Assembly (NCBI GenBank): GCA_027064405.1
Contig: JAMOPP010000164.1
Coordinates: 1-35,051 of the forward strand
DNA from: Desulfurellales bacterium
GTDB lineage: Bacteria > Campylobacterota_A > Desulfurellia > Desulfurellales > Hippeaceae
DNA length: 35,051 nt
Direction of reading: 5' to 3'
The translations under genes and the position numbers were made by a program. Below, one piece after another: positions 4,767 to 31,151 of the stretch. Numbering within the stretch: the first letter of the stretch is position 1; every line of letters begins with the position of its first letter. The notes below the pieces were generated by a model that did no database searches, was not told the DNA's origin, and saw only the letters and a list, made by a program, of their open reading frames with translations.

Positions 4767-5375
4767 TTAATCCTTTAATATGCAGGCATCAATTTTTTGA
4801 CCTGATTCGCATATTTCTTCCGAAATGATTTTAACATTCTTTGGCATATTAGTTATTAATTGTTTATTGTTTATCAGAACAACTTTAACCATACTCCAAT
4901 CCTCTATTTTTTTCATTTCATCTTCATTGTCAAATTTTAATATAGGCGTAGTGCCAAGAAGTAAGGATGACAAAAGAATATCCTTTATCGTCTGTTTGTC
5001 AACATAAGATGTGTTAAAAATTACTCCGTCCATACCAAAGACTCTATGCAAAAATACTTGATAGTTTTCCAAAATTATATCTTCGGCAATTACTATAAGA
5101 TTGCTGTTTAACTGTTTAGACAGGGTAATATCATCCATTTCGGGGGTGTATTCTTTCTCTCTCATATCAATTATGACTGCGCTTTTTTCATTTTCTACAT
5201 TATAGAGTTCTTCTATATCTTTTATTCTATTAATAGATTTAATATCATTTCCAATTTCTTCATAGAGATCACACGGTTCTGCATATAGCATATTAAAATT
5301 TCTTTCCATAACAACCATCGGTATGTCTTGTTTCTTTTTTTCAATAAATTTTTCTTTTCTCTTCTTTAAATCCAC
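4767..5375 (-). CDS. Unknown protein resembling a degenerate TrpC (indole-3-glycerol-phosphate synthase) barrel
   Basis: I do not recognise this 202-residue protein as an established family. The start is a GTG at 5375 that overlaps the lgt stop (TAGTG), with GGAG about 8 bases upstream. By eye its middle and end follow the order of TrpC. Residues 92-108 (NLIVIAEDIILENYQVF) resemble the LRKDFIIDPYQIYEA strand. PILKFDNEDEM (144-154) resembles LVEVHDEEEL. VLINNKQLIT (166-175) resembles GINNRDLKT. IISEEICESG...DACILKD (184-202) resembles the final VSESGI...ADAVLVGE. The TrpC lysine is Glu98, and the glutamate of LVEVH is Lys147. The IKKASPSKG loop is absent. The protein is short for a full barrel (TrpC is about 260). 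If the resemblance is real, this is a non-catalytic paralogue kept in an envelope operon. No function is claimed. Confidence 0.75.
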   Translation of the reverse strand: MDLKKRKEKFIEKKKQDIPMVVMERNFNMLYAEPCDLYEEIGNDIKSINRIKDIEELYNVENEKSAVIIDMREKEYTPEMDDITLSKQLNSNLIVIAEDIILENYQVFLHRVFGMDGVIFNTSYVDKQTIKDILLSSLLLGTTPILKFDNEDEMKKIEDWSMVKVVLINNKQLITNMPKNVKIISEEICESGQKIDACILKD

Positions 5376-6148
5376 TATTGACTCCTTTTTTTGTATCTAA
5401 AAAATAAACCTATAATTGCTACTATTATCATACTTAAACATAACCACTGCCCCATTGTTAGCCCGTATATAAAACCTATTTGTATATCAGGTTCTCTCGT
5501 AAATTCTATAAAAAATCTAAATATTCCATACAATAAAATGAATGTATAAAATAAAAATCCTTCATATTTAATAAATTTATCACGACTGTAGAACATTATC
5601 AGAAACAAAAAAAAACCCTCAAACAGGGCTTCATAAATCTGGGAAGGATGTCTTGGTATATATCCCCCTGAAGGAAAAGCTACAGCCCAAGGAACATTAC
5701 TTGCCCTACCCCACAATTCATCGTTTATAAAATTTGCTATTCTGCCAAAAAAGAGCCCAACTGGAGCAATAACCACAGCTTCGTCAGCAAGCTGATAAAA
5801 ACCTATATTGTATTTCTTAGCCAATAAAAATCCTGCCACTACTACGCCTATCAATCCTCCGTGAAAACTCATTCCGCCTTTCCATATATATAACATTCTT
5901 ATCGGATTTTCAATATAATAAGAAAAATTATATATAAAAATATATCCTAATCTTCCACCTAAGATTACTCCGAAAACTATATACAAAAAAACATCATCTG
6001 TTAGGTATTTTTTGTTAAATTTTTGCAGTCTTTTTTTTAAATAAAAATAAGCTATTATAAAACTTAATGCATAGGCTACACCGTACCACCTTAAATGCAG
6101 AGAGCCTATGCTTAAAATATTCGGGCTTATGTTAGGGTACTTTAACAT
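5375..6148 (-). CDS. lgt: Prolipoprotein diacylglyceryl transferase
   Basis: Lgt is an inner-membrane enzyme that transfers diacylglycerol from phosphatidylglycerol to the lipobox cysteine of prolipoproteins. The 257-residue protein has about seven hydrophobic segments. Its signatures are LGGRLGYIFIYN, WKGGMSFHGGLIG, the Lgt signature GRIANFINDELWGR with its essential Arg and Asn, and RHPSQIYEALFEG. All are in the usual order and spacing. The ATG lies 17 bases inside the upstream SPOR gene, and the stop overlaps the following GTG start by one base, so the three genes are translationally linked. Confidence 0.97.
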   Translation of the reverse strand: MLKYPNISPNILSIGSLHLRWYGVAYALSFIIAYFYLKKRLQKFNKKYLTDDVFLYIVFGVILGGRLGYIFIYNFSYYIENPIRMLYIWKGGMSFHGGLIGVVVAGFLLAKKYNIGFYQLADEAVVIAPVGLFFGRIANFINDELWGRASNVPWAVAFPSGGYIPRHPSQIYEALFEGFFLFLIMFYSRDKFIKYEGFLFYTFILLYGIFRFFIEFTREPDIQIGFIYGLTMGQWLCLSMIIVAIIGLFFRYKKRSQ

Positions 6149-6914
6149 ACCTTTTAATTATGGGAAAGTATCCAAGCTTAAGTTGCCTTTTTATATTTAA
6201 AGACTCTTCTTTTGCAGCAGAATATCCACTTATAGGACCTACCATAACTCTGGTATATGTCTTGTTATTAACAACAACCTTTTTAGAATATGTTTTATGA
6301 CCGCATTTCCTAAGTTTTAATACATTTCTCAATGCCTGTGAACGATTAAGATTTGATGAAACCTGTATTACATACCTTCTAAGATGATGTACGGTTTTTT
6401 TGTGTAGCACTCTATGTTTTTTTGTTTTTGCAACAGTCGTCTTCTTGTGCTCTAAAACCTTTTTTACTTTGGGCTGAAATACATTATTATTGTTCTTGTA
6501 AGTGCTTTGACTACTCTCGTTGCCTTTATTATCAGAATAGGGATTTACTATTGTAGGCGTGCTTACCCCTTCGGATAAATTGTCTTTGGTATTATTTTTA
6601 TCCGAATTGTCAGACTGAATAGCATATGTCTTAATCTCTTCACTATTATTAGAGCCTAAATCTTCTGCACTATTTTGCAAATCATTGCTGTCAAATTGCG
6701 GATTACTTTGCTCCTCATCCGTATTCTTGCTCATTTGATTTAATGTTATTGCCGTATTTGTCTTCTTTGTACTCACTAATGAATTTATTATATATCCTGC
6801 CGCAATACCTACTATCAATATTATCGCAGATACTATAATAATTACTTTTGTACCTGATTTATTCTTCTGTTTTTGAAGAATTTCCTTAATTCTGTCTTTA
6901 TTGTTATCTTCCAT
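6132..6914 (-). CDS. SPOR-domain cell-envelope protein
   Basis: This is a 260-residue bitopic membrane protein with a C-terminal SPOR domain. SPOR domains bind denuded peptidoglycan at the division septum. The order is: short charged cytoplasmic segment (1-22), transmembrane helix (about 23-46), a low-complexity Asn/Ser/Asp-rich stretch to about 140, a Lys/His-rich basic stretch (about 148-178), then SPOR at about 178-258. The SPOR part begins RRYVIQVSSNLNRSQALRN and includes YTRVMVGPISGYSAAKEE. The layout is that of FtsN- or DedD-like proteins, but I cannot assign orthology. It lies between argS (9-base gap) and lgt (17-base overlap), upstream of mur and fts genes, which fits a septal role. 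Confidence 0.88.
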   Translation of the reverse strand: MEDNNKDRIKEILQKQKNKSGTKVIIIVSAIILIVGIAAGYIINSLVSTKKTNTAITLNQMSKNTDEEQSNPQFDSNDLQNSAEDLGSNNSEEIKTYAIQSDNSDKNNTKDNLSEGVSTPTIVNPYSDNKGNESSQSTYKNNNNVFQPKVKKVLEHKKTTVAKTKKHRVLHKKTVHHLRRYVIQVSSNLNRSQALRNVLKLRKCGHKTYSKKVVVNNKTYTRVMVGPISGYSAAKEESLNIKRQLKLGYFPIIKRYVKVP

Positions 6915-6923
6915 TTTCTAACC

Positions 6924-8555
6924 TCACATCTTTTTTTTGGCTTCTATTCCTATCAAATCGAAACCCAACTTTAATGTTTTAGCGACTGCATCCAACAGAG
7001 CAAGTCTAGCGTCCATTAGATTACTCTCTTGTCCTATAACCCTTATATGGTTATAGAACTTATGCAACTTTTCAGCTATCTCCAAAATACCCCTTGCTAT
7101 ATGATAGGGTTCAAGTTCATCGTGTGCCTTTTTAATATAGTCTTTGAACTTAACAACAGATTTTATCAGATTTATTTCGTATTTATCTGACAATAAACTT
7201 AAATTTTTGTTCGTTATCTCGTAGTTTTTGTCAAGTTGAGCAAAAATATTTGATATTCTTGCATAGGCGTACTGGGCGTAGAATACGGGATTTTCGCTAC
7301 TCTGTTTCTTTGCCAAATATACATCAAAATCGAGATGAGAATCTACGCTACGAAGTAAAAACATAAATCTTGCCGCATCGACCCCTGCCTCTTCAAGAAC
7401 CTTATCAAGTTCAACAAACTCGGCTTTTCTTGTTGACATAGATAGTTTTTCACCGTCTCTAAGTAGATTTACTATCTGAATTAATATAACATTTAAGTTA
7501 TCACTATCTATTCCAAGAGCGCTTACTGCAGACTTCATCCTCTTTACATAACCGTGATGATCCGCTCCCCATATGTCTATAACCCTATCAAATTTTCTTG
7601 TTATAAATTTATTTTTATGATAGGCAATGTCACTTGCGAAATATGTATAATCTCCATTGCTTTTCTTTAAAACCCTATCTTTATCGTCTCCAAAATTAGT
7701 TGTTTTAAACCATAAAGCACCGTCTTTTTCATAGATTAAATTTTTATCTTTCAAGAATGATATCGAGTTTTCAACCTCATTTGAATCAAACAGCCTCTTC
7801 TCCTTAAAGAAATTATCAAAGCTTACCCTGAAATTACTAAGTGTATTTAAAATATCTTTAAGTATGACCTCTGAACTTTTCTCCATACATATGGAAATAG
7901 ATTCATCCTCATTTTTATTTAAAAGATTACTGCCATATTCCGCCATAATATCTTTTGCTATATCAATAATATATTCGCCTCTGTATCCGTTTTTTGGTAT
8001 ATCTTCAGACATACCCATAAGTTGTTTATACCTTATAAATGTCGATATGCCGAGCATTCTCATCTGAAGACCGGCATCATTGATATAGTACTCCTTTTCA
8101 ACATCGTGACCGGCAAATTTCAAAATTCTTGATATTGAATCTCCTATGGCAGCACCTCTTCCGTGACCAATATGTAAAGGTCCCGTTGGATTAGCACTCA
8201 CAAATTCAACTTGAATTTTCTGTTTTTTTACATTCGGTCTAAAATAGCCACTCGTGTCATTATTAATTTTTTCTATTTCCTCAATAAAAACACTATTTTT
8301 TATGTAGAAATTTATGAACCCTGGCCCGGCAATTTCTATTCTTTCAAATAGATTTTCATCTAAAGCCATATCCCTAAATTCTTCAGCTATTAAATACGGT
8401 TTTTTCTTTAATTGCTTTGACAAAAGCATAGCAATATTGGTTGAATAGTCGCCAAATTCTTCCTGTTTAGGATATTCTATAGAATACAATATATCGGAAT
8501 TTAGGTTTTTTGCTTTTAAATATTTAATTATTATACTGTCTATCCTTGCTCTCAT
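6924..8555 (-). CDS. argS: Arginyl-tRNA synthetase
   Basis: ArgRS charges tRNA-Arg. The 543-residue protein shows the N-terminal additional domain, then the class I motif SANPTGPLHIGHGRGAA. GADHHGYVKRMKSA and EKLSMSTRKAEFVEL follow; the latter is the degenerate KMSKS loop usual for ArgRS. The anticodon-binding region begins at about SENPVFYAQYAYARI. The length is normal. The gene is 3 bases after tatA and 9 bases before the SPOR gene, so it is part of the envelope operon rather than a stand-alone tRNA synthetase gene. Confidence 0.97.
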   Translation of the reverse strand: MRARIDSIIIKYLKAKNLNSDILYSIEYPKQEEFGDYSTNIAMLLSKQLKKKPYLIAEEFRDMALDENLFERIEIAGPGFINFYIKNSVFIEEIEKINNDTSGYFRPNVKKQKIQVEFVSANPTGPLHIGHGRGAAIGDSISRILKFAGHDVEKEYYINDAGLQMRMLGISTFIRYKQLMGMSEDIPKNGYRGEYIIDIAKDIMAEYGSNLLNKNEDESISICMEKSSEVILKDILNTLSNFRVSFDNFFKEKRLFDSNEVENSISFLKDKNLIYEKDGALWFKTTNFGDDKDRVLKKSNGDYTYFASDIAYHKNKFITRKFDRVIDIWGADHHGYVKRMKSAVSALGIDSDNLNVILIQIVNLLRDGEKLSMSTRKAEFVELDKVLEEAGVDAARFMFLLRSVDSHLDFDVYLAKKQSSENPVFYAQYAYARISNIFAQLDKNYEITNKNLSLLSDKYEINLIKSVVKFKDYIKKAHDELEPYHIARGILEIAEKLHKFYNHIRVIGQESNLMDARLALLDAVAKTLKLGFDLIGIEAKKKM

Positions 8556-9859: not shown

Positions 9860-9916
9860 AAAAAAACTGCTTTATCTTTAAATAGGGCGAGTAATCAAAA
9901 ATCTACACAAAGCAGT
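9860..9916 (-). terminator. Probable intrinsic terminator after the radical SAM gene
   Basis: On the minus strand, ACTGCTTT (9916-9909) and AAAGCAGT (9873-9866) form a perfect 8-base-pair stem. A run of seven T follows directly (9866-9860; the first T is the last paired base). The loop is long, about 35 bases, and the 5' arm overlaps the last codons and stop region of the radical SAM gene. The T-run position and the promoter just downstream make termination here plausible. The long loop lowers confidence. Confidence 0.5.
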
Positions 9917-10943
9917 AAGGGTCTATCGCCAGATAGTCTCCATAATACGCATCCGCCCTGGCTCTGCATCCTCCACAAACATTTATGTATTTGCAAGTTG
10001 AACACTTTTTATTATAAGAATTAAAGTTTCTCATATCCTTGAAAATTTTAGAGTTATGCCAAATATCAAGAAATCCCTTTTCCAAAATATTACCGGCATC
10101 TCTTAAAAAATAACTGCAAGGTTTTACATTTCCCTCATAATTTATGAACGCTATCTTTTGTCCTGCAAGACACCCCTTTGCTCCCCCTGTCGAAAAGCTT
10201 AAATTTCTCCTTGTATAGTCTATATTGTTTTTCCTTGCTTCTATATCGCATACTGCATAATATTCAGGTGCGCAAGTGGGTCTTACGAAGATATCCTTTT
10301 CTTTAAGCTCCATATAAAAATGCCATTTCAATATTTTTTCATAATCTGTTTTTGATATAAGCTCGTCATTTATGTCTGCACCTCGACCGGTTGGGACAAT
10401 CATAAACATATACCATGCACTTGCACCAATTTTTTTTGACAGTCTGTATGTATTTTCTATGTCATTTTGATTTCTTTTTGTAAAAGAAGAATTAACAATA
10501 AAATTTATGCCAAGTTCTTTAAAAATACTTGCCGCTTTTATTGTTTTGTCAAATGCTCCATTAATATGTCTAAAATCATCATGTATCGAACTGCTTGAAC
10601 CGTCTATACTTAAAGATACTATATCTATGTGCCGTTTTATCTCTAAAGCCTTGCTATAATCAACCAATGTTCCGTTTGTAGCAAGACCTACACGCATACC
10701 TTGTGCCCTTATATAATCGGCAATTTCAAAAACATCATTTCTTAAAAGAGGCTCTCCCCCCGTTAACACAACAACAGGCTTAAATTCTTTTGCAATTTCA
10801 TCTATCGTATCTGTTATATTCTTAAATGTTAAAACATCTTTTAACTGCATTGATGCATTTGTTCTGCAGTGTATGCAGTCTAAGTTGCAACGAGGAGTTA
10901 TTTCAAACGCAACCCATTTCAAATCAAAATCGGTTTCCATCAT
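9903..10943 (-). CDS. Radical SAM/SPASM protein of the AhbD/NirJ (heme biosynthesis) type
   Basis: The 346-residue protein has the radical SAM cluster motif C19-x3-C23-x2-C26 near the N-terminus and LTGGEPLLR for SAM binding. A C-terminal SPASM region follows, with Cys 314, 317, 323, 326 and 344 (CSTCKYINVCGGCRARADAY then GDYLAIDPYC). The FEITPRCNLDCIHCR opening and CGGCRARA...DP-C ending are those of AhbD, AhbC and NirJ. These act in siroheme-derived heme b or heme d1 synthesis. AhbD decarboxylates iron-coproporphyrin. Which member this is cannot be settled by eye, and no other heme gene is nearby, so another SPASM function is possible. The protein ends two residues after the last cysteine, a little short for AhbD. 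Two ATGs are in tandem at 10943 and 10940. Confidence 0.85.
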   Translation of the reverse strand: MMETDFDLKWVAFEITPRCNLDCIHCRTNASMQLKDVLTFKNITDTIDEIAKEFKPVVVLTGGEPLLRNDVFEIADYIRAQGMRVGLATNGTLVDYSKALEIKRHIDIVSLSIDGSSSSIHDDFRHINGAFDKTIKAASIFKELGINFIVNSSFTKRNQNDIENTYRLSKKIGASAWYMFMIVPTGRGADINDELISKTDYEKILKWHFYMELKEKDIFVRPTCAPEYYAVCDIEARKNNIDYTRRNLSFSTGGAKGCLAGQKIAFINYEGNVKPCSYFLRDAGNILEKGFLDIWHNSKIFKDMRNFNSYNKKCSTCKYINVCGGCRARADAYYGDYLAIDPYCFV

Positions 10944-13044: not shown

Positions 13045-14844
13045 TTAAGAATTATTCGCCTCAATAAGTTTGATAAATGCCTCTTTGGAAACCGCTACGC
13101 TCCCAATCTGTTTCATTCTTTTTTTACCCTTTTTTTGCTTCTCCAGCAGTTTTCTTTTCCTTGTGATGTCTCCGCCATAGCATTTTGCCAAAACATCTTT
13201 TCTTAATGCTCCAATCTGTTCTTTGGCTATTATTTTCCCGTTTATTTTTGCTTGAAGTCTAACTTCAAAAAGCTGTTTCGGTATATATTTTTTTAGGGTT
13301 TTAAGCACATCCCTTGCCATTCTGTACGCTTTTTCCTTTGGAACTATCATCGAGAAGGAGTCAACCTCTTTTGAATTTATCATTACTACAAGTTTTGTCA
13401 GGTCGGATTTCTTAAATCCCTCAAAATTGTAATCAAAAGAGGCGTATCCTTTTGACAACGACTTCAGTTTATCATAAAAATCGGTAATAACCTCCGAAAG
13501 AGGAATGGAGTATTTAATTAAAACTCTATCTTGAGAAATGTATGTCATATTTTTTTGATTGCCACGCTTATCCTGAAGAAGCCTTAGTATATTGCCTACA
13601 AATTCTGATGGTGTAATAATTTCAACAATAACAAAAGGTTCATATATACCGGATATCTTCTGTGGCTCAGGAAGTAACGAAGGATTGTATATATCAATGA
13701 CCTCGGAATTTGTTTTCTCAATCCTATATACAACACTTGGGCTTGTAGCAACTACATCCAGATTAAATTCATCTTCAATTCTTTCTTTTGTTATATTCAT
13801 ACTTAGAACGCCCAAAAATCCGCATCTAAATCCGAAACCGAGTGAGTCTGATTTCTCAGGCTCTATTGTTAACGACGCATCGTTGAGCTGAAGTTTTCCG
13901 AGTGCTTCTTTTAAATCTTCATATTTATCCGTATCGGTTGGATAAATACCTGCATAAACAAAGGGTTTAGGCTTTTTAAACCCCTCAAAGGCTTCTTCAC
14001 TTGGGTTATTTTCAAGGGTAATTGTATCGCCTATCAATGCATCTTTTATATTTTTAACATTTGCAATTACATATCCTACGCTTCCTACATCAAGTTTTTC
14101 TATAATTTTCTGCTTTGGTGTGTAAACACCGAGTTCTTCAACCTCAAACACTTTTCCATTTGACATAATCTTGATTTTATCCCCTCTTTTAAGGGAACCT
14201 TCAAAAATTCTTACGGCAAAAACAACTCCTCTGTAGTTGTCATACCAGGAATCTACAACAAGTGCTTTTAACCGAGCAGTGTCGTTTCCTTTAGGATACG
14301 GAATTCTTTTAACGATTGCCTCAAGTATGGTATCTATTCCTATATTTTGTTTTGCGGAAACTTTAAGTGCAGACGATGTGTCTATTCCAATAGCATCCTC
14401 AATCTCATGTTTAGTCTTTTCTATATCAGCTGAAGGTAAATCTATTTTATTAATAACCGGTATTATTTCAAGGTTGTGCTCTATTGCAAGATATGCATTT
14501 GCTATTGTCTGAGCTTCTACCCCCTGTGTTGCATCCACAACAAGCAGGCAGCCTTCGCAGGCAGATAGACTTCTTGAAACCTCGTATCCGAAATCAACAT
14601 GACCTGGTGTGTCTATCATATTCAAATAGTATTTTTCATTATTATGGGTATATTCTATTCTTACTGTTTGAGCCTTTACTGTAATTCCGTGTTTTCTTTC
14701 AACATCAAGACTGTCAAGCACCTGTTCCTTCATCTCTCTTTTGCTTAGTCCGCCTGTATTTTCTATAATTCTGTCTGCAATAGTGCTCTTTCCGTGATCT
14801 ATGTGTGCTATAATTGAAAAATTTCTTATATGTTTTGTATCCAT
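13045..14844 (-). CDS. lepA: Elongation factor 4 (LepA)
   Basis: LepA is a translational GTPase that acts on stalled or initiating ribosomes. The 599-residue protein has the G1 motif AHIDHGKSTIADRI, G3 DTPGHVDFGYEVSRSL and G4 NKIDLPSAD. It also has the EF-G-like domains and the LepA-specific C-terminal domain ending QIGSVAVSKEAFIKL. The length is typical. The ATG overlaps the stop of the ThiD2-like gene by one base (TAATG). It is the last gene of the glyQ-glyS-guaB-pld-thiD2-lepA run. An all-AT palindrome lies at its stop codon. Confidence 0.97.
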   Translation of the reverse strand: MDTKHIRNFSIIAHIDHGKSTIADRIIENTGGLSKREMKEQVLDSLDVERKHGITVKAQTVRIEYTHNNEKYYLNMIDTPGHVDFGYEVSRSLSACEGCLLVVDATQGVEAQTIANAYLAIEHNLEIIPVINKIDLPSADIEKTKHEIEDAIGIDTSSALKVSAKQNIGIDTILEAIVKRIPYPKGNDTARLKALVVDSWYDNYRGVVFAVRIFEGSLKRGDKIKIMSNGKVFEVEELGVYTPKQKIIEKLDVGSVGYVIANVKNIKDALIGDTITLENNPSEEAFEGFKKPKPFVYAGIYPTDTDKYEDLKEALGKLQLNDASLTIEPEKSDSLGFGFRCGFLGVLSMNITKERIEDEFNLDVVATSPSVVYRIEKTNSEVIDIYNPSLLPEPQKISGIYEPFVIVEIITPSEFVGNILRLLQDKRGNQKNMTYISQDRVLIKYSIPLSEVITDFYDKLKSLSKGYASFDYNFEGFKKSDLTKLVVMINSKEVDSFSMIVPKEKAYRMARDVLKTLKKYIPKQLFEVRLQAKINGKIIAKEQIGALRKDVLAKCYGGDITRKRKLLEKQKKGKKRMKQIGSVAVSKEAFIKLIEANNS

Positions 14845-15244
14845 TAAACCGCCATTTTTTTAAGTTTTAAAATAATATCCTGTTCCAAAATATAGCTTTC
14901 GTACCTCAATTTCTTAAATTGCAAAGAATCGTCTATATTTATCATCTTAAAGAGTTCTTCGAGAACCCTCAATGATTCTTCTATGCGTTTTAAATTAGCA
15001 TAAACAATATCTTCAATACTGTTTCTCACCTTTTCAATATTGCTGTTAATTGTTTTGCCTACATCATTTTTAGTATCTCTAAACAGTATAAAGTCGTTGT
15101 ATCTTTTTTGAATTAACGAAACTTCCGAGCGAATATTCTTAATTTTTCCCGATATCTCTTTATCGTCAAGTATAAATCTTGATATATCTTCGGCAACCCT
15201 TAGTCCTTCCCTTAATCGATTGAGATTTGCATCCGCTATTCTTT

Positions 15245-15269
<25 letters not shown>
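14844..15269 (-). CDS. thiD2: ThiD2-type hydroxymethylpyrimidine phosphate kinase (stand-alone)
   Basis: ThiD2 is the monofunctional HMP-phosphate kinase of thiamine synthesis, often annotated as the N-terminal part of thiamine-phosphate synthase because it is fused to ThiE in many genomes. The 141-residue helical protein shows the family pattern RIADANLNRLREGLRVAEDI near residue 10, then LFRDTKNDVGKTI in the middle. ANLKRIEESLRVLEEL and the LRYESYILE ending follow. It matches the domain from end to end and has no ThiE part. The start is a TTG at 15269, with AAGGAG about 11 bases upstream, 25 bases inside the phospholipase D gene. It is coupled to lepA by a one-base overlap. No other thiamine gene is in the window. 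The function is inferred from the family. Confidence 0.78.
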
Positions 15270-21150: not shown

Positions 21151-22641
21151 TTACTTAAAATCCATATATTCTAAGTATAAATTCTGAAAATTTGCTTCAT
21201 TGGCTATTTCAATATACTCTATTTTTTTCGATACGGACTCTATCTTTTCCCTTTCCTTTTTACAAAAAAGTTGTAGAGCACCTGACAAAGATGAATTGCC
21301 CAAAAATTCCACATTATCTTTAAAAGCAAGCAAGTTGGATTCAAAAATATCCTCTTTTGAGATATTTTTTGAAAAACCGCCTGACATATATACCGTTTCA
21401 ATTTCGTTAAACGACAAACCCGTTTTATCAATTAATATTTGAATACCGGCATTAAGTGACGCCTTAACAAGCTGAAATTCTCTTATTGATTTTTGCGTCA
21501 AAAATATATTATTATCGAGCAGAAAACGGTTTTCTTTAATCCTATTAATAAGCTGAAGCGGAGCATCTTCAATCTCCCAGGCTTCGACTATATTCCCTCG
21601 TTTATTAATAATATTATACCGTCTTAAAAGTGCAATTGCGCTGATTAAACCGCTTCCTGTAATACCTTTTGCTTTTTTGTTACCAATAGTTGTGCATTTC
21701 AATATCCCGTCAAATTCAACTTTTTCAATCGCACCCTCCTGAGCAGTCATTCCGTAATCTATGGATGCTCCTTCAAGAGCAGGACCTGCAGGTACGCTCG
21801 CTGAATATATTCTGTTTTTATAATTAAGCACAAATTCGCAGTTCGTTCCTATATCCAAAAATAAAAAATTTTTGTTGAAATCAAGTTTAGTTAGCCCTGA
21901 AGTTACATCAGAGCCTATAAACGCACTCAATACAGGTGGAGTGTAAGTGTCTATACCGTTCCATTCTGTATATAAAGAACCGTAAAACACAGGTTTATAG
22001 GGATATTTTCCTATACTCGTCGGATTTTTTGAGAAAAAAAACGCAAGCATTGTAGGATTTGCGGAGACTATCATAAAATCAATTTTACCGACATTATGTT
22101 TCATTTTAATTTGTTCAATAATTTTAAGAATGGAGGATTGTAGAATATTAATTAAAATATCAGTCTTACCGTTGTTAGAAAAGCTGATTCTCGATAACAC
22201 ATCCGCTCCATATGCCATTTGAGGATTAAGAAAATTTACATTTTCTGCAACTTTCCCATTTTTTACAAAAGAAAGCGCAATTGTTGTTGTTCCTATATCG
22301 AGTGCAATATAATTTTTATCATCATCAGTGCATACATCTCCATCAAAATTTGAAAATTTCGGCTTATTTTCAAAAACTTCTACAATGGAATCTTCAACCG
22401 CATTGTGCATACACGCAAGTCTTATTCCGCTTTTTAATTCCTGCTCAGTAAAACTTTGTTTTTCTATTTCGTTGGGCGCAGGAATATTTTTTAGAAATCT
22501 TACCTTGCATTTTTTACATATCCCCCTGCCACCGCAATACGCATTTATGGATATAGAATTCTCTGCAAGTATATTTAATAACGACCCGTTAGAACCATTA
22601 ATCTCTATAAATTTATCTGAATTTTTAACGGTAAATTTCAT
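21151..22641 (-). CDS. RACo-like corrinoid protein reductive activator ([2Fe-2S] ferredoxin plus ASKHA domain)
   Basis: The 496-residue protein has an N-terminal [2Fe-2S] ferredoxin domain with Cys 36, 42, 45 and 77 (AYCGGRGICKKCKVRF, then LACMH). A middle domain follows, then an ASKHA ATPase domain from about residue 105 (YIALDIGTTTIALSFV, FLDIGTNCEFVL and AGPALEGASIDYG; the DUF4445/RACo C-terminal family). RACo and relatives use ATP to drive reduction of inactive Co(II) corrinoid proteins to Co(I) in methyl transfer systems. No corrinoid methyltransferase is in the window. A plausible partner elsewhere is a methionine synthase lacking its own reactivation domain. The gene begins immediately after the nrnA stop (no gap). 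Confidence 0.88.
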   Translation of the reverse strand: MKFTVKNSDKFIEINGSNGSLLNILAENSISINAYCGGRGICKKCKVRFLKNIPAPNEIEKQSFTEQELKSGIRLACMHNAVEDSIVEVFENKPKFSNFDGDVCTDDDKNYIALDIGTTTIALSFVKNGKVAENVNFLNPQMAYGADVLSRISFSNNGKTDILINILQSSILKIIEQIKMKHNVGKIDFMIVSANPTMLAFFFSKNPTSIGKYPYKPVFYGSLYTEWNGIDTYTPPVLSAFIGSDVTSGLTKLDFNKNFLFLDIGTNCEFVLNYKNRIYSASVPAGPALEGASIDYGMTAQEGAIEKVEFDGILKCTTIGNKKAKGITGSGLISAIALLRRYNIINKRGNIVEAWEIEDAPLQLINRIKENRFLLDNNIFLTQKSIREFQLVKASLNAGIQILIDKTGLSFNEIETVYMSGGFSKNISKEDIFESNLLAFKDNVEFLGNSSLSGALQLFCKKEREKIESVSKKIEYIEIANEANFQNLYLEYMDFK

Positions 22642-23589
22642 TTATTTAAGGAATGAAAACGAGTCAATAATTTTTGTCTTAACCTCTTCCAATGTTCCTT
22701 CAATCTGGGCTCCTGCTGCATTTTTGTGACCGCCTCCTCCGAAAACAGAAGCTGCACGAGCAACATCAATCTTACCTTTGGAACGCATACTTATCTTAAA
22801 AACATTGTGCCTGTCTTCCCTTAATAATATACCTACCTCAGCGCCTCTTATACTTCTTGCGTAATTTACAAACCCCTCAGAGTGCTCAATTTGCGTAGCG
22901 GTTTTTTTGAACATATCTTCGGTCACATAAAGAATAGCTATTTTACCGTCTATAAACACCTGAAGTGTATTAAGAACAAGACCCAACAACTTAATGGTTT
23001 CAAGCGTATTGCTTTCATAAATATTATAGGCACAGAACCACGGGTCAACACCTATTTCAAGTAAATCCGCAGCGATTCTCATAGTCTCCGGAGTGGTGGA
23101 TGAATATCTAAAAGAACCGGTATCTGTCATTATGCTTACATATAAATACTGAGCTGTTTTTTTTGAAATAGCAATACCGTTCTGTTTAAATATTCTCCAT
23201 AGCATAATGCCCACGGCACTTGCATCACCATCGATAAAATTAATATCTCCGAAGAGGGTATTCGTTTTGTGATGGTCTATGTTAATAAAAATCTTATCTT
23301 TTGTGTCTTCTTTTTTTATGCCACATCTTTCAATTTCTGCCGTATCAACTGCTATAATAACATCGGTTTTCTTCATCGTTTTTATTGGCTCTATTATGTC
23401 ATAGTCCTCTAAAAAAGAATAAACCTCAGGCGGTTTTGTTAGATTAACAACCTGGACATTTTTGCCCATATCCTTTAAAGCACTGTAAAGAGCCAAAGAT
23501 GAACCTATTGCATCCCCGTCAGGATTTTTATGAGAAACTATAAGAAAGCTATCTTTTTCTTTTATTATGTTTCCTATTTTTTCTATCAC
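22642..23589 (-). CDS. nrnA: Bifunctional oligoribonuclease / pAp phosphatase (NrnA, DHH/DHHA1)
   Basis: This cytoplasmic Mn-dependent phosphodiesterase degrades short RNAs and 3'-phosphoadenosine 5'-phosphate. The 315-residue protein has DHH motif I SHKNPDGDAIGSSLAL, motif II VDTAEIERCG, the DHH motif itself INIDHHKTNTLFGD, and MTDTGSFRYSSTT. The DHHA1 ending is FGGGGHKNAAGAQI. The start is a GTG at 23589 with AAGG about 9 bases upstream. It is 4 bases after rbfA, the usual position for this gene in the nusA-infB cluster. Confidence 0.94.
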   Translation of the reverse strand: MIEKIGNIIKEKDSFLIVSHKNPDGDAIGSSLALYSALKDMGKNVQVVNLTKPPEVYSFLEDYDIIEPIKTMKKTDVIIAVDTAEIERCGIKKEDTKDKIFINIDHHKTNTLFGDINFIDGDASAVGIMLWRIFKQNGIAISKKTAQYLYVSIMTDTGSFRYSSTTPETMRIAADLLEIGVDPWFCAYNIYESNTLETIKLLGLVLNTLQVFIDGKIAILYVTEDMFKKTATQIEHSEGFVNYARSIRGAEVGILLREDRHNVFKISMRSKGKIDVARAASVFGGGGHKNAAGAQIEGTLEEVKTKIIDSFSFLK

Positions 23590-27736: not shown

Positions 27737-28576
27737 TTATTTGCTGTTTATTGCTGATTTCAAAGTGTTATATAAAAGCATAGCAATAGTCATTGGGCCA
27801 ACCCCACCAGGCACAGGTGTTATATATGAAGCTTTTTGTGACACGCCCTCGAAATCTACATCGCCTGTAACCTTTCCGTTAATTTTACTTATACCCACAT
27901 CCACAACTACGCATCCTTCTTTAACCATTTCTTGAGTAATAAGATGGGGTTTTCCTACAGCCGATATCAATATATCCGCCTTAGATGTTTTATCCTTTAA
28001 ATTTTTTGTGTGTATATGGCATAACTGTACAGTAGCATCCGCATTTGTAAGCATTGCACTCATTGGTTTGCCTGTAATGTTTCCGGCACCTACTACAACA
28101 ACATCCTTACCCTTTAATTCTATTTTGTATTCTTCAAATAGCTTCATTATACCAAAAGGTGTGCATGGATAAAACATAGGATTTCCTCGCGAGAGTGTTC
28201 CTACATTATAGGGATGAAACCCGTCCACATCTTTTTTGTAATCTATTGCCTCTATAACCCGCTCTTCCCTTATATGTGGTGGAAGTGGTAGCTGAACCAA
28301 AATTCCGTGCACCATAGGATTATTATTCAACATTTTAATTACACTTATTAGTTCATCTTCGGAAATTTCCTTAGGCATTCTATGATTTATAGAATAAATA
28401 CCGACATCTTCACAAGCCTTGGTTTTCATATTAACATACAATTGGCTTGCCGGATTTTCTCCAACGAGCATCACTGCAAGACCCGGTATTACACCCTGTT
28501 TTTTAAGCCCTTCGACCTCTTTTTTGATTTCCTCTCTCATCTTTTTGGATAATGATTTTCCGTCCAATAACACCAT
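27737..28576 (-). CDS. folD: Methylenetetrahydrofolate dehydrogenase/cyclohydrolase
   Basis: FolD interconverts 5,10-methylene-, methenyl- and 10-formyl-THF. The 279-residue protein has PGLAVMLVGENPASQLYVNMK with the catalytic tyrosine and lysine. HGILVQLPLPPH and DVDGFHPYNVGTLSRGNP follow. The Rossmann motif is VVVGAGNITGKPMSAML, and the end is GVGPMTIAMLLYNT. The catalytic VGxSxIVGxP motif of other FolDs reads VGAGNITGKP here: Ser-Arg become Ala-Gly, a modest departure in a cofactor-contacting loop. It lies 16 bases after the diadenylate cyclase gene. Confidence 0.96.
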   Translation of the reverse strand: MVLLDGKSLSKKMREEIKKEVEGLKKQGVIPGLAVMLVGENPASQLYVNMKTKACEDVGIYSINHRMPKEISEDELISVIKMLNNNPMVHGILVQLPLPPHIREERVIEAIDYKKDVDGFHPYNVGTLSRGNPMFYPCTPFGIMKLFEEYKIELKGKDVVVVGAGNITGKPMSAMLTNADATVQLCHIHTKNLKDKTSKADILISAVGKPHLITQEMVKEGCVVVDVGISKINGKVTGDVDFEGVSQKASYITPVPGGVGPMTIAMLLYNTLKSAINSK

Positions 28577-28592
28577 TTTAATAACCTTCTTT

Positions 28593-29483
28593 CTACAAGG
28601 CTTTTTCTATTCTTGTAATTAAATTTCCATTTTTAAATATTGTAACATCCCCTGTTGACTCTGAAACGACTACACTTATCGCATTTGTTAAAGCTGTAAT
28701 GGATGCGGCGGCAAGGTGTCGCGAACCCAAACCTTTCGGTATCTCTTCAGTAACAGCAGAAGATGTTGCTATAAACACTCCTGCGGATTCTACTACACCA
28801 TCTGCATCAATTAAAATAGCACCGTCAAGCAGACTAAACTCTTTCAATGTATCATCAAGATTAACCTTTAGTATATTCCTCTCGTCGGGATTGTATCCCT
28901 TAAAAGGGTTAAATATCATTTGCTTAACATTTTCCAACACCTTTTCTTTATCTCCAAGTATAAAAATGGCACCGATACTCTTTCCTTCTCTGCCCTGATT
29001 TGCAAGTTCAAGTGCTATTCTTAAAATTCTCTCAAAAACCTCAGGTTTAACCGATTTCTCCAAATCAATCTCACCCTTAAAACTAAGCAGCTCTTTTTCC
29101 TTTGATATATCTATAAAAATAGAAGTATCTATACTGTCTGAAACACCCGTTAATGCAATTAGATTTTCATCTTTTGACAACATACCGGATGACATACACA
29201 TCATTAATGCTATCTTTACCTTATTCATTCTGTTAAAATTTATGGAGGGAGCTACAATTAGATTTCCCAAGCTTTTGAGTTTCTCAAAAATTATCTTATC
29301 ATCCTCTTCTTTCTCCTCTTCTCTTATGATGATAATTTTTTTTACATCGTTATTTTTAACAAAATCTTCATCAAGATAGTCTTTTACATCATTGTAGTAA
29401 AATAAAACAGAGGTATTACCCTCAATACTCTTTGCCAATTCCAAAGAGTTCTGAAATATAAATTTAGCCACTCTTTTTGTCAT
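28593..29483 (-). CDS. Diadenylate cyclase, archaeal DacZ-like (PK-C-like domain plus DAC domain)
   Basis: The C-terminal half (about residues 155-296) is a DAC domain, which makes c-di-AMP from two ATP. It shows ANQGREGKSIGAIFILGD, NPFKGYNPDERNI and LLDGAILIDADGVV with the DGA motif. GLGSRHLAAASIT and VVSESTGDVTIF complete it. The RHR motif of DisA and CdaA reads RHL here. The N-terminal half resembles the pyruvate-kinase C-terminal fold (ALTGVSDSIDTSIFIDI), the arrangement known from archaeal DacZ. There is no DisA DNA-binding part and no membrane segment. I prefer ATG 29483. A TTG at 29495 would add four residues. The start lies 20 bases inside the small Cys-rich gene, and neither start has a clear ribosome site, so coupling is likely. 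Confidence 0.82.
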   Translation of the reverse strand: MTKRVAKFIFQNSLELAKSIEGNTSVLFYYNDVKDYLDEDFVKNNDVKKIIIIREEEKEEDDKIIFEKLKSLGNLIVAPSINFNRMNKVKIALMMCMSSGMLSKDENLIALTGVSDSIDTSIFIDISKEKELLSFKGEIDLEKSVKPEVFERILRIALELANQGREGKSIGAIFILGDKEKVLENVKQMIFNPFKGYNPDERNILKVNLDDTLKEFSLLDGAILIDADGVVESAGVFIATSSAVTEEIPKGLGSRHLAAASITALTNAISVVVSESTGDVTIFKNGNLITRIEKAL

Positions 29484-29625
29484 CTTTTTTCTCAACTTTT
29501 TTCTTTAAAGATATATCAAATGTAAAGTCCGGGCAATGGAGAGCATAACCCTCCTTCATAAGGAACTGTTTTTTACAGGTTGCTCTCCATGCACATACAC
29601 TACAGCTTATTTTTTTGTCTTCCAT
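29464..29625 (-). CDS. Small four-cysteine protein (possible metal or Fe-S binding), family unassigned
   Basis: This 53-codon gene is read from ATG 29625 to TAA 29464. The protein is cysteine-rich at its front: C8-x2-C11-x5-C17-x13-C31, within SCSVCAWRATCKKQF and YALHCPDF. A tail of lysines and aspartates follows. Four spaced cysteines with aromatic residues between them suggest a zinc or iron-sulfur site. I recall similar CAWRATC...HCPDF peptides in anaerobic Gram-negatives but cannot name a family. It starts 5 bases after the leuA stop with no clear ribosome site, and its end overlaps the diadenylate cyclase start by 20 bases. Coding is supported by the intact frame filling the gap and by the motif density. 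No function is claimed. Confidence 0.75.
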   Translation of the reverse strand: MEDKKISCSVCAWRATCKKQFLMKEGYALHCPDFTFDISLKKKVEKKDDKKSG

Positions 29626-29630
29626 TTTAT

Positions 29631-31151
29631 TTACATATACATTAAAGCTTTATTTATTGCGTCAAGATAGGCTTTTGCACTTGCCTCAATGATATCCGTA
29701 GATGTTCCCCTTCCCAAAATATTTTTGTCAATATCGGAAAAATAGACCTTTACGATAACCTCGCCTATTGCATCTTTACCCTCTGTTAAAGCTTGTATGT
29801 CATATCTTAAAAGCTTACCCTTTACATATGTAATTCTTTCAAGAGATTTAAATGTAGCATCTACAGGCCCGTCTCCCAATGCAGCATCTTGAAATTCTTC
29901 TTCATTTTTTACAAGTTTAATGGTTGCAGTAGGTGATGTGTTACTTCCTGAGACAACCTGCAGAGAAACAAGTTTGTATATTTGAGGAACAACTTTGAAT
30001 TTCTCCTCTATAATAGACCTTAAATCTTCGTCATATATCTCTTTCTTTTTATCGGCAAGTTTTTTAAAGTCATTAAACACATCAAGCAGTTTTTCTTTGT
30101 CAAGGTCGTATCCCAGCTCTTTAAGTCTTTTTTCAAGTCCGTGTTTACCAGAGTGTTTGCCAAGAACAAAGTTATTTGTTTCAATACCAACATCCTTAGG
30201 CTTCATAATTTCATATGTCTGTTTTTCCTTTATAACTCCGTCTTGGTGAATGCCAGCTTCATGGGCAAAGGCATTAATTCCCACTATTGCCTTATTTCTC
30301 TGTATATGAATACCCGTAAGCTTACTTACCATTCTGCTTGTTCTATGTATTTCTTCAGTATTAATTTCCGTATAGCAATCCTTGTAAAAATCATTTCTTG
30401 TCTTTAGAGCCATTACTATTTCTTCAAGGGCTGCATTTCCGGCTCTCTCTCCCAATCCGTTAATTGTGCATTCAACCTGATTTGCCCCTGCCAAGACAGC
30501 TGAAAGAGAATTTGCAACCGCCATGCCAAGATCATTATGGCAGTGTACGCTTATATTGGCTTTATCTATGTTTGGCACTTTATTTTTTAGGTATTGTATA
30601 AGTTCATAATATTCTTGAGGTGTCGTATAGCCTACGGTATCAGGGACATTTATTGTTGTTGCGCCTGCATTGATAACTTTTTCATATATTGTGCACAAAT
30701 AATCCCAATCGCTTCTTGTAGCATCTTCAGCGGAAAATTCTACATCATCGGTATAGTTTCTTGCCAATTTAACAGAGTCCACAGCTACATCTATTACCGC
30801 ATCATAACTCATTTTTAATTTTTTCTCTACATGAACCGGACTTGTGGCGATAAATGTGTGTATTCTTCCCCTTTCCGCTTTTGAGAGAGCTTTACCTGCC
30901 TCTTCGACATCCCTTTTTGTTGCCCTTGCTAAAGATGCAATTATCGGTCTTCTAACCTCTTGAGCCACTTTTGCGATTGCATCGGCATCACCCAAAGATG
31001 CAGCGGCAAAACCCGCTTCAATAACATCAACGCCGAGGGTTTCGAGCTGTCTTGCTATAGATAATTTTTCCTCAGTGTTTAAGCTTGCGCCCGGAGATTG
31101 TTCCCCGTCTCTTAGCGTAGTGTCAAAAATTACAATCTTTCTTTCACTCAT
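29631..31151 (-). CDS. leuA: 2-isopropylmalate synthase
   Basis: LeuA condenses acetyl-CoA with 2-oxoisovalerate, the first step of leucine synthesis. The 506-residue protein has FDTTLRDGEQSPGASLN, the metal- and substrate-binding front. HCHNDLGMAVANSLSAVLAG and NGLGERAGNAALEEIVMAL follow, with HEAGIHQDGV. A C-terminal regulatory domain follows (GSNTSPTATIKL, GDGPVDATFKSLE). That domain gives leucine feedback in the family. The length is typical of the LeuA group with regulatory domain. The start overlaps the pssA stop by 8 bases. Confidence 0.97.
   Translation of the reverse strand: MSERKIVIFDTTLRDGEQSPGASLNTEEKLSIARQLETLGVDVIEAGFAAASLGDADAIAKVAQEVRRPIIASLARATKRDVEEAGKALSKAERGRIHTFIATSPVHVEKKLKMSYDAVIDVAVDSVKLARNYTDDVEFSAEDATRSDWDYLCTIYEKVINAGATTINVPDTVGYTTPQEYYELIQYLKNKVPNIDKANISVHCHNDLGMAVANSLSAVLAGANQVECTINGLGERAGNAALEEIVMALKTRNDFYKDCYTEINTEEIHRTSRMVSKLTGIHIQRNKAIVGINAFAHEAGIHQDGVIKEKQTYEIMKPKDVGIETNNFVLGKHSGKHGLEKRLKELGYDLDKEKLLDVFNDFKKLADKKKEIYDEDLRSIIEEKFKVVPQIYKLVSLQVVSGSNTSPTATIKLVKNEEEFQDAALGDGPVDATFKSLERITYVKGKLLRYDIQALTEGKDAIGEVIVKVYFSDIDKNILGRGTSTDIIEASAKAYLDAINKALMYM

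Follow-up and report, generated by a model that had tools for sequence, protein, structure and literature searches.

The locus considered here raises the question of whether a small four-cysteine protein is a dedicated partner of the diadenylate cyclase whose gene it overlaps, or a protein with a job of its own that happens to share an operon with the enzyme. The preliminary description guessed at a metal-binding or redox-sensing partner of c-di-AMP synthesis. The stretch of DNA analysed, called the window, comprises 35,051 nucleotides from a Desulfurellales bacterium (contig JAMOPP010000164.1). The small gene occupies positions 29464-29625 of the minus strand and is translated as MEDKKISCSVCAWRATCKKQFLMKEGYALHCPDFTFDISLKKKVEKKDDKKSG, a protein of 53 residues with the pattern CxxCAWRxxC-x13-CPDFxxD and a tail rich in Lys, Glu, and Asp. 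Its cysteines, C8-x2-C11-x5-C17-x13-C31, are exactly as first described. The cyclase gene follows on the same strand (28593-29483, 296 residues from the ATG at 29483), and given this start, the stop codon of the small gene is 20 bases into the cyclase frame (overlap 29464-29483, minus strand), again as first described. The TTG at 29495 is an alternative cyclase start, and a candidate overlapping start is retained at 19 of the 21 loci read. Upstream, 5 bases separate the stop codon of leuA from the ATG of the small gene. The upstream sequences bear out the earlier reading that both genes lack a clear Shine-Dalgarno sequence: AATAAA precedes the start of the small gene and GAGAAAAAAG that of the cyclase. 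The expected translational coupling is plausible from the overlap and the missing Shine-Dalgarno sequences. An Rfam search of the whole window gave no matches.

The small reading frame encodes a genuine protein under purifying selection. Among 14 small genes of the Hippea group, the mean pN is 0.16 and the mean pS 0.77, and pN is lower than pS in all 91 pairs. The codon-level conservation on which the preliminary description had made its proposal depend is thus present. Together with the orthologues in every genome of the phylum, this selection rules out a chance open reading frame. In 40 diverse sequences of the family, C8, C11, C17, C31, and D37 are invariant, and A12, W13, and R14 are at least 90% conserved. 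It is scarcely credible that the frame is a leader that couples leuA to the cyclase by translation and whose peptide is unimportant. The lack of a ribosome-binding site, the 5-base gap after leuA, and the 20-base overlap would suit such a leader, but strong selection at the amino-acid level would not, nor would the recurrence of the invariant residues in unrelated gene contexts. Two apparent matches were discarded: one (L041) is a stretch within a 2-oxoacid dehydrogenase E2-like protein, and the other, the second match in G007, contains stops.

The assignment of the downstream gene to the archaeal-type (DacZ/CdaZ-like) diadenylate cyclases, as first proposed, is supported by profile similarity, motifs, and a structure model, and the enzyme is predicted to make c-di-AMP. 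The protein belongs to the DAC domain family PF02457 (E 1.2e-21, 77 bits against a gathering cut-off of 27). With NF041371, the haloarchaeal DacZ equivalog, it shares similarity over nearly the full length (28-297 on 15-266/270; E 2.8e-36), and its 125.2 bits under the curated cut-off of 430 make it a relative of the equivalog rather than a member. Known DacZ/CdaZ proteins combine PF02457 with the PK_C-like N-terminal domain PF21755 (DacZ_P), which the window protein matches weakly (E 0.025, 14.7 bits against a cut-off of 27.4). Like them, it has the DGA and RH motifs and, in the model, a soluble N-terminal alpha/beta domain. Both catalytic motifs are intact in the window; across 21 cyclase sequences D220, G221, and GLGxRH are invariant, and the DGA motif is found in 20, with DGC in L011. 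The structure model has a pLDDT of 84.5, and its best PDB matches are DAC domains; those listed span about 150 residues and cover DAC domains only. The nearest named contigs with the cyclase come from Desulfurellales, Desulfurellaceae, and Hippea metagenome-assembled genomes. DacZ-type enzymes are already known in some bacteria (PMC6741144), and a literature search for c-di-AMP in Hippea and Desulfurella gave no result. The gene block of the cyclase also encodes, after infB, a DHH-DHHA1 protein of the NrnA/DhhP type (22642-23589, minus strand; PF01368, PF02272), which is a candidate c-di-AMP or pApA phosphodiesterase.

Part of the interest in the pair came from the premise that c-di-AMP is uncommon in bacteria with two membranes. 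This premise is weak, because DAC genes occur in 345 of the 386 sampled genomes, not split by envelope type, and a review lists Fusobacteria, Bacteroidetes, Chlamydiae, Cyanobacteria, and Deltaproteobacteria among the Gram-negative groups with DAC proteins (PMC10745434).

Gene order within the phylum of the window bears on the partner idea in both directions. The phylum, taken here to be Desulfurellota on the basis of what is generally known of its taxa, is represented by 25 genomes. All 25 carry the small gene, near-complete genomes of 1.1-1.2 Mb among them, and 22 carry a DAC gene. In each of these 22 genomes the cyclase adjoins the small gene by coordinates, and families f1, f2, and f3 show the order leuA, small gene, cyclase, folD. 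In the window, folD is the next gene after the cyclase (27737-28576, minus strand) and leuA, for 2-isopropylmalate synthase, precedes the small gene (29631-31151, minus strand), both named from sequence reading. In the fourth family, f4, no DAC gene was found in any of the three genomes (G020, G022, and G024, which are 94, 87, and 88% complete). As these are drafts, the absence of the cyclase is probable rather than certain. The small gene still lies behind leuA in all three, and on the two contigs that allow naming, a gene for a HAD-like hydrolase takes the place of the cyclase (L108, 143-775; L109, 5120-5797). The small gene is therefore not always beside the cyclase, and leuA, kept as its neighbour in all four families, is the constant one, since the order of leuA and the small gene persists without the cyclase.

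It could be argued from this phylum that Desulfurellota recruited a member of an older and broader family to regulate the adjacent cyclase by sensing metal or redox state. Adjacency in every cyclase-bearing genome and possible overlapping starts at most loci agree with such a regulator, and a metal input is conceivable given that the activity of DacZ from H. volcanii was reported only with Mn (PMC6741144). On the other hand, f4 keeps the small gene without a cyclase, and members distant from any cyclase have the same conserved residues. Moreover, tightly packed or overlapping pairs recur in the block, with pssA against leuA and psd against pssA, and these are not known partners. The sampled genomes outside the phylum add a further objection. 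The profile of the small family matched 24 of the 361 such genomes, DAC genes were present somewhere in 19 of these 24 against 304 of the other 337 (Fisher p 0.16), and this is no positive association. Recruitment as a regulator is accordingly considered improbable, and a dedicated partnership is disfavoured because the small gene occurs without the cyclase and because DAC genes are not associated with it at the genome level. Metal binding by the small protein, the other half of the original guess, is likely from its cysteine pattern.

Outside Desulfurellota, the family occurs in about 20 bacterial families, with more small genes in the phylum of G044 and one more in the phylum of G059. At none of the 29 places read is a cyclase beside the small gene, an outcome that, with the f4 genomes, matches the wide occurrence without the cyclase that the preliminary description had itself named as refuting its proposal. 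The naming of neighbours relied on similarity to proteins of the window, on sequence reading, and on a small number of Pfam scans, and some of the contigs are short. The commonest downstream neighbour is argS, found in six families (f18, f24, f39, f41, f48, and f198) of at least three phyla, those of G038, G044, and G059 being distinct by their non-overlapping member lists. In f15 and f234, the gene directly downstream of the small one encodes a SPOR-domain protein, and SPOR-domain genes come after argS in the window and at several other loci. In addition, two families have tilS beside the small gene, another has mnmA there, and further neighbours are UPF0102, UPF0047, purL, and a glmU-like gene. 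Unlike in several other phyla, where the small gene directly precedes argS, argS of the window (6924-8555, minus strand; PF00750, PF05746, PF03485) is not adjacent to it; the SPOR-domain protein that follows argS there lies at 6132-6914 (minus strand; PF05036, E 4e-07).

For the small family as a whole, argS is thus a better positional lead than the cyclase. A narrower form of the housekeeping explanation would place the small protein in translation or tRNA metabolism with arginyl-tRNA synthetase (ArgRS) or tRNA-modifying enzymes, and would make the leuA position secondary. The recurrence directly upstream of argS and the tilS and mnmA neighbours speak for this role. However, neither Desulfurellota nor most of the remaining families have argS next to the small gene, and operon neighbours in bacteria are often unrelated. 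With many families having other neighbours, the link to argS is likewise positional only, and a role confined to translation or tRNA metabolism is rather unlikely. Because the relatives sit beside other genes, argS more often than any other, the small protein is probably a general metal-binding protein and not a cyclase partner.

The nature of the metal site is approached through the cysteines. Pfam-A and NCBIfam scans of 40 members gave no convincing match above the curated cut-offs, including no above-threshold similarity to zinc families, and a PDB sequence search gave nothing reliable. An AlphaFold model of the small protein, built with 40 relatives, had too low a confidence (pLDDT 53) to serve in comparing folds. 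Eight of the 40 members weakly and locally resemble TIGR03491, the TM0106 RecB-like nuclease family (best E 0.0015), with the cysteine triad inside the matched stretch. Among members scanned one at a time, the best reaches 15 bits against a cut-off of 97, which is outside membership. Proteins that do match TIGR03491 carry loops such as CHFCPWDQAC and CKLCPWLQHC. The metal sites of the TIGR03491, Cas4, and AddB proteins share with the small protein a local triad of the CxxC[PA]W type. In contrast to them, the small protein, with 53 residues, has no nuclease domain and no homology at a curated threshold, and its fourth cysteine comes about 13 residues after the triad instead of far upstream. The auxiliary [4Fe-4S] domains of the SPASM/twitch type likewise have CxxC-x5-C and then a later cysteine, but the small protein is a stand-alone peptide and the likeness is one of cysteine pattern. 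The CxxC-x5-C spacing is more typical of [4Fe-4S] sites of the SPASM, AddB, and Cas4 types. Related triads bind [4Fe-4S] in the Cas4/AddB group and zinc in DUF3799 (PMC3466216). From the TIGR03491-like triad and these precedents, metal binding is likely, and a [4Fe-4S] centre is somewhat favoured over zinc.

The small protein may nevertheless be a structural zinc knuckle, such as a module that binds RNA or protein, and take no part in redox chemistry; this would differ from the preferred housekeeping explanation in the metal only. Four invariant cysteines, a basic stretch after the third, and the flexible charged tail would fit a knuckle, as would the replacement of Fe-S by zinc in the DUF3799 arrangement. 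Given the spacing of the triad and the lack of above-threshold similarity to zinc families, a zinc knuckle is a real but less favoured possibility.

Taken together, the small gene probably represents a widespread, uncatalogued family of metal-binding housekeeping proteins, encoded in one operon with the cyclase in a single phylum. Its proteins, of 50-65 residues, would be cytosolic with a flexible charged tail and would hold one metal centre, more likely [4Fe-4S] than zinc, through CxxC-x5-C-x(10-15)-C. Their task may be a general housekeeping one with a possible connection to translation. The small gene would have taken up its place behind leuA in the ancestor of the phylum, and in most lineages the gene after it would have become that of the DacZ-like cyclase. 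The overlap would couple the translation of the two genes and give them a common dosage, but it does not show that they share a mechanism. A bolder extension is highly improbable: a widespread, undescribed class of tiny Fe-S proteins that signals cluster or redox state to the translation apparatus by way of neighbouring ArgRS or tRNA-modifying enzymes, and that is additionally wired to c-di-AMP synthesis in Desulfurellota. The idea of a cyclase partner can largely be set aside, and the locus is an example of how an overlap conserved within one phylum can mislead about function. The small family itself may deserve study, as it has no Pfam or NCBIfam model, occurs in all genomes of one phylum, and is repeatedly next to argS elsewhere.

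Several other genes of the window, all on the minus strand, are recorded here. A radical SAM protein with a SPASM domain (9903-10943) has a C-terminal CxxC-x5-C that resembles that of the small protein. A protein like RACo, the reductive activator of corrinoid proteins, is encoded at 21151-22641 (PF14574, PF17651, and Fer2). A stand-alone protein of the ThiD2 family (14844-15269; PF17792) lies between lepA and a PLD-like protein. Finally, a protein of 202 residues (4767-5375), which matches IGPS at a sub-threshold level only, is possibly a GlpP-like TIM barrel.
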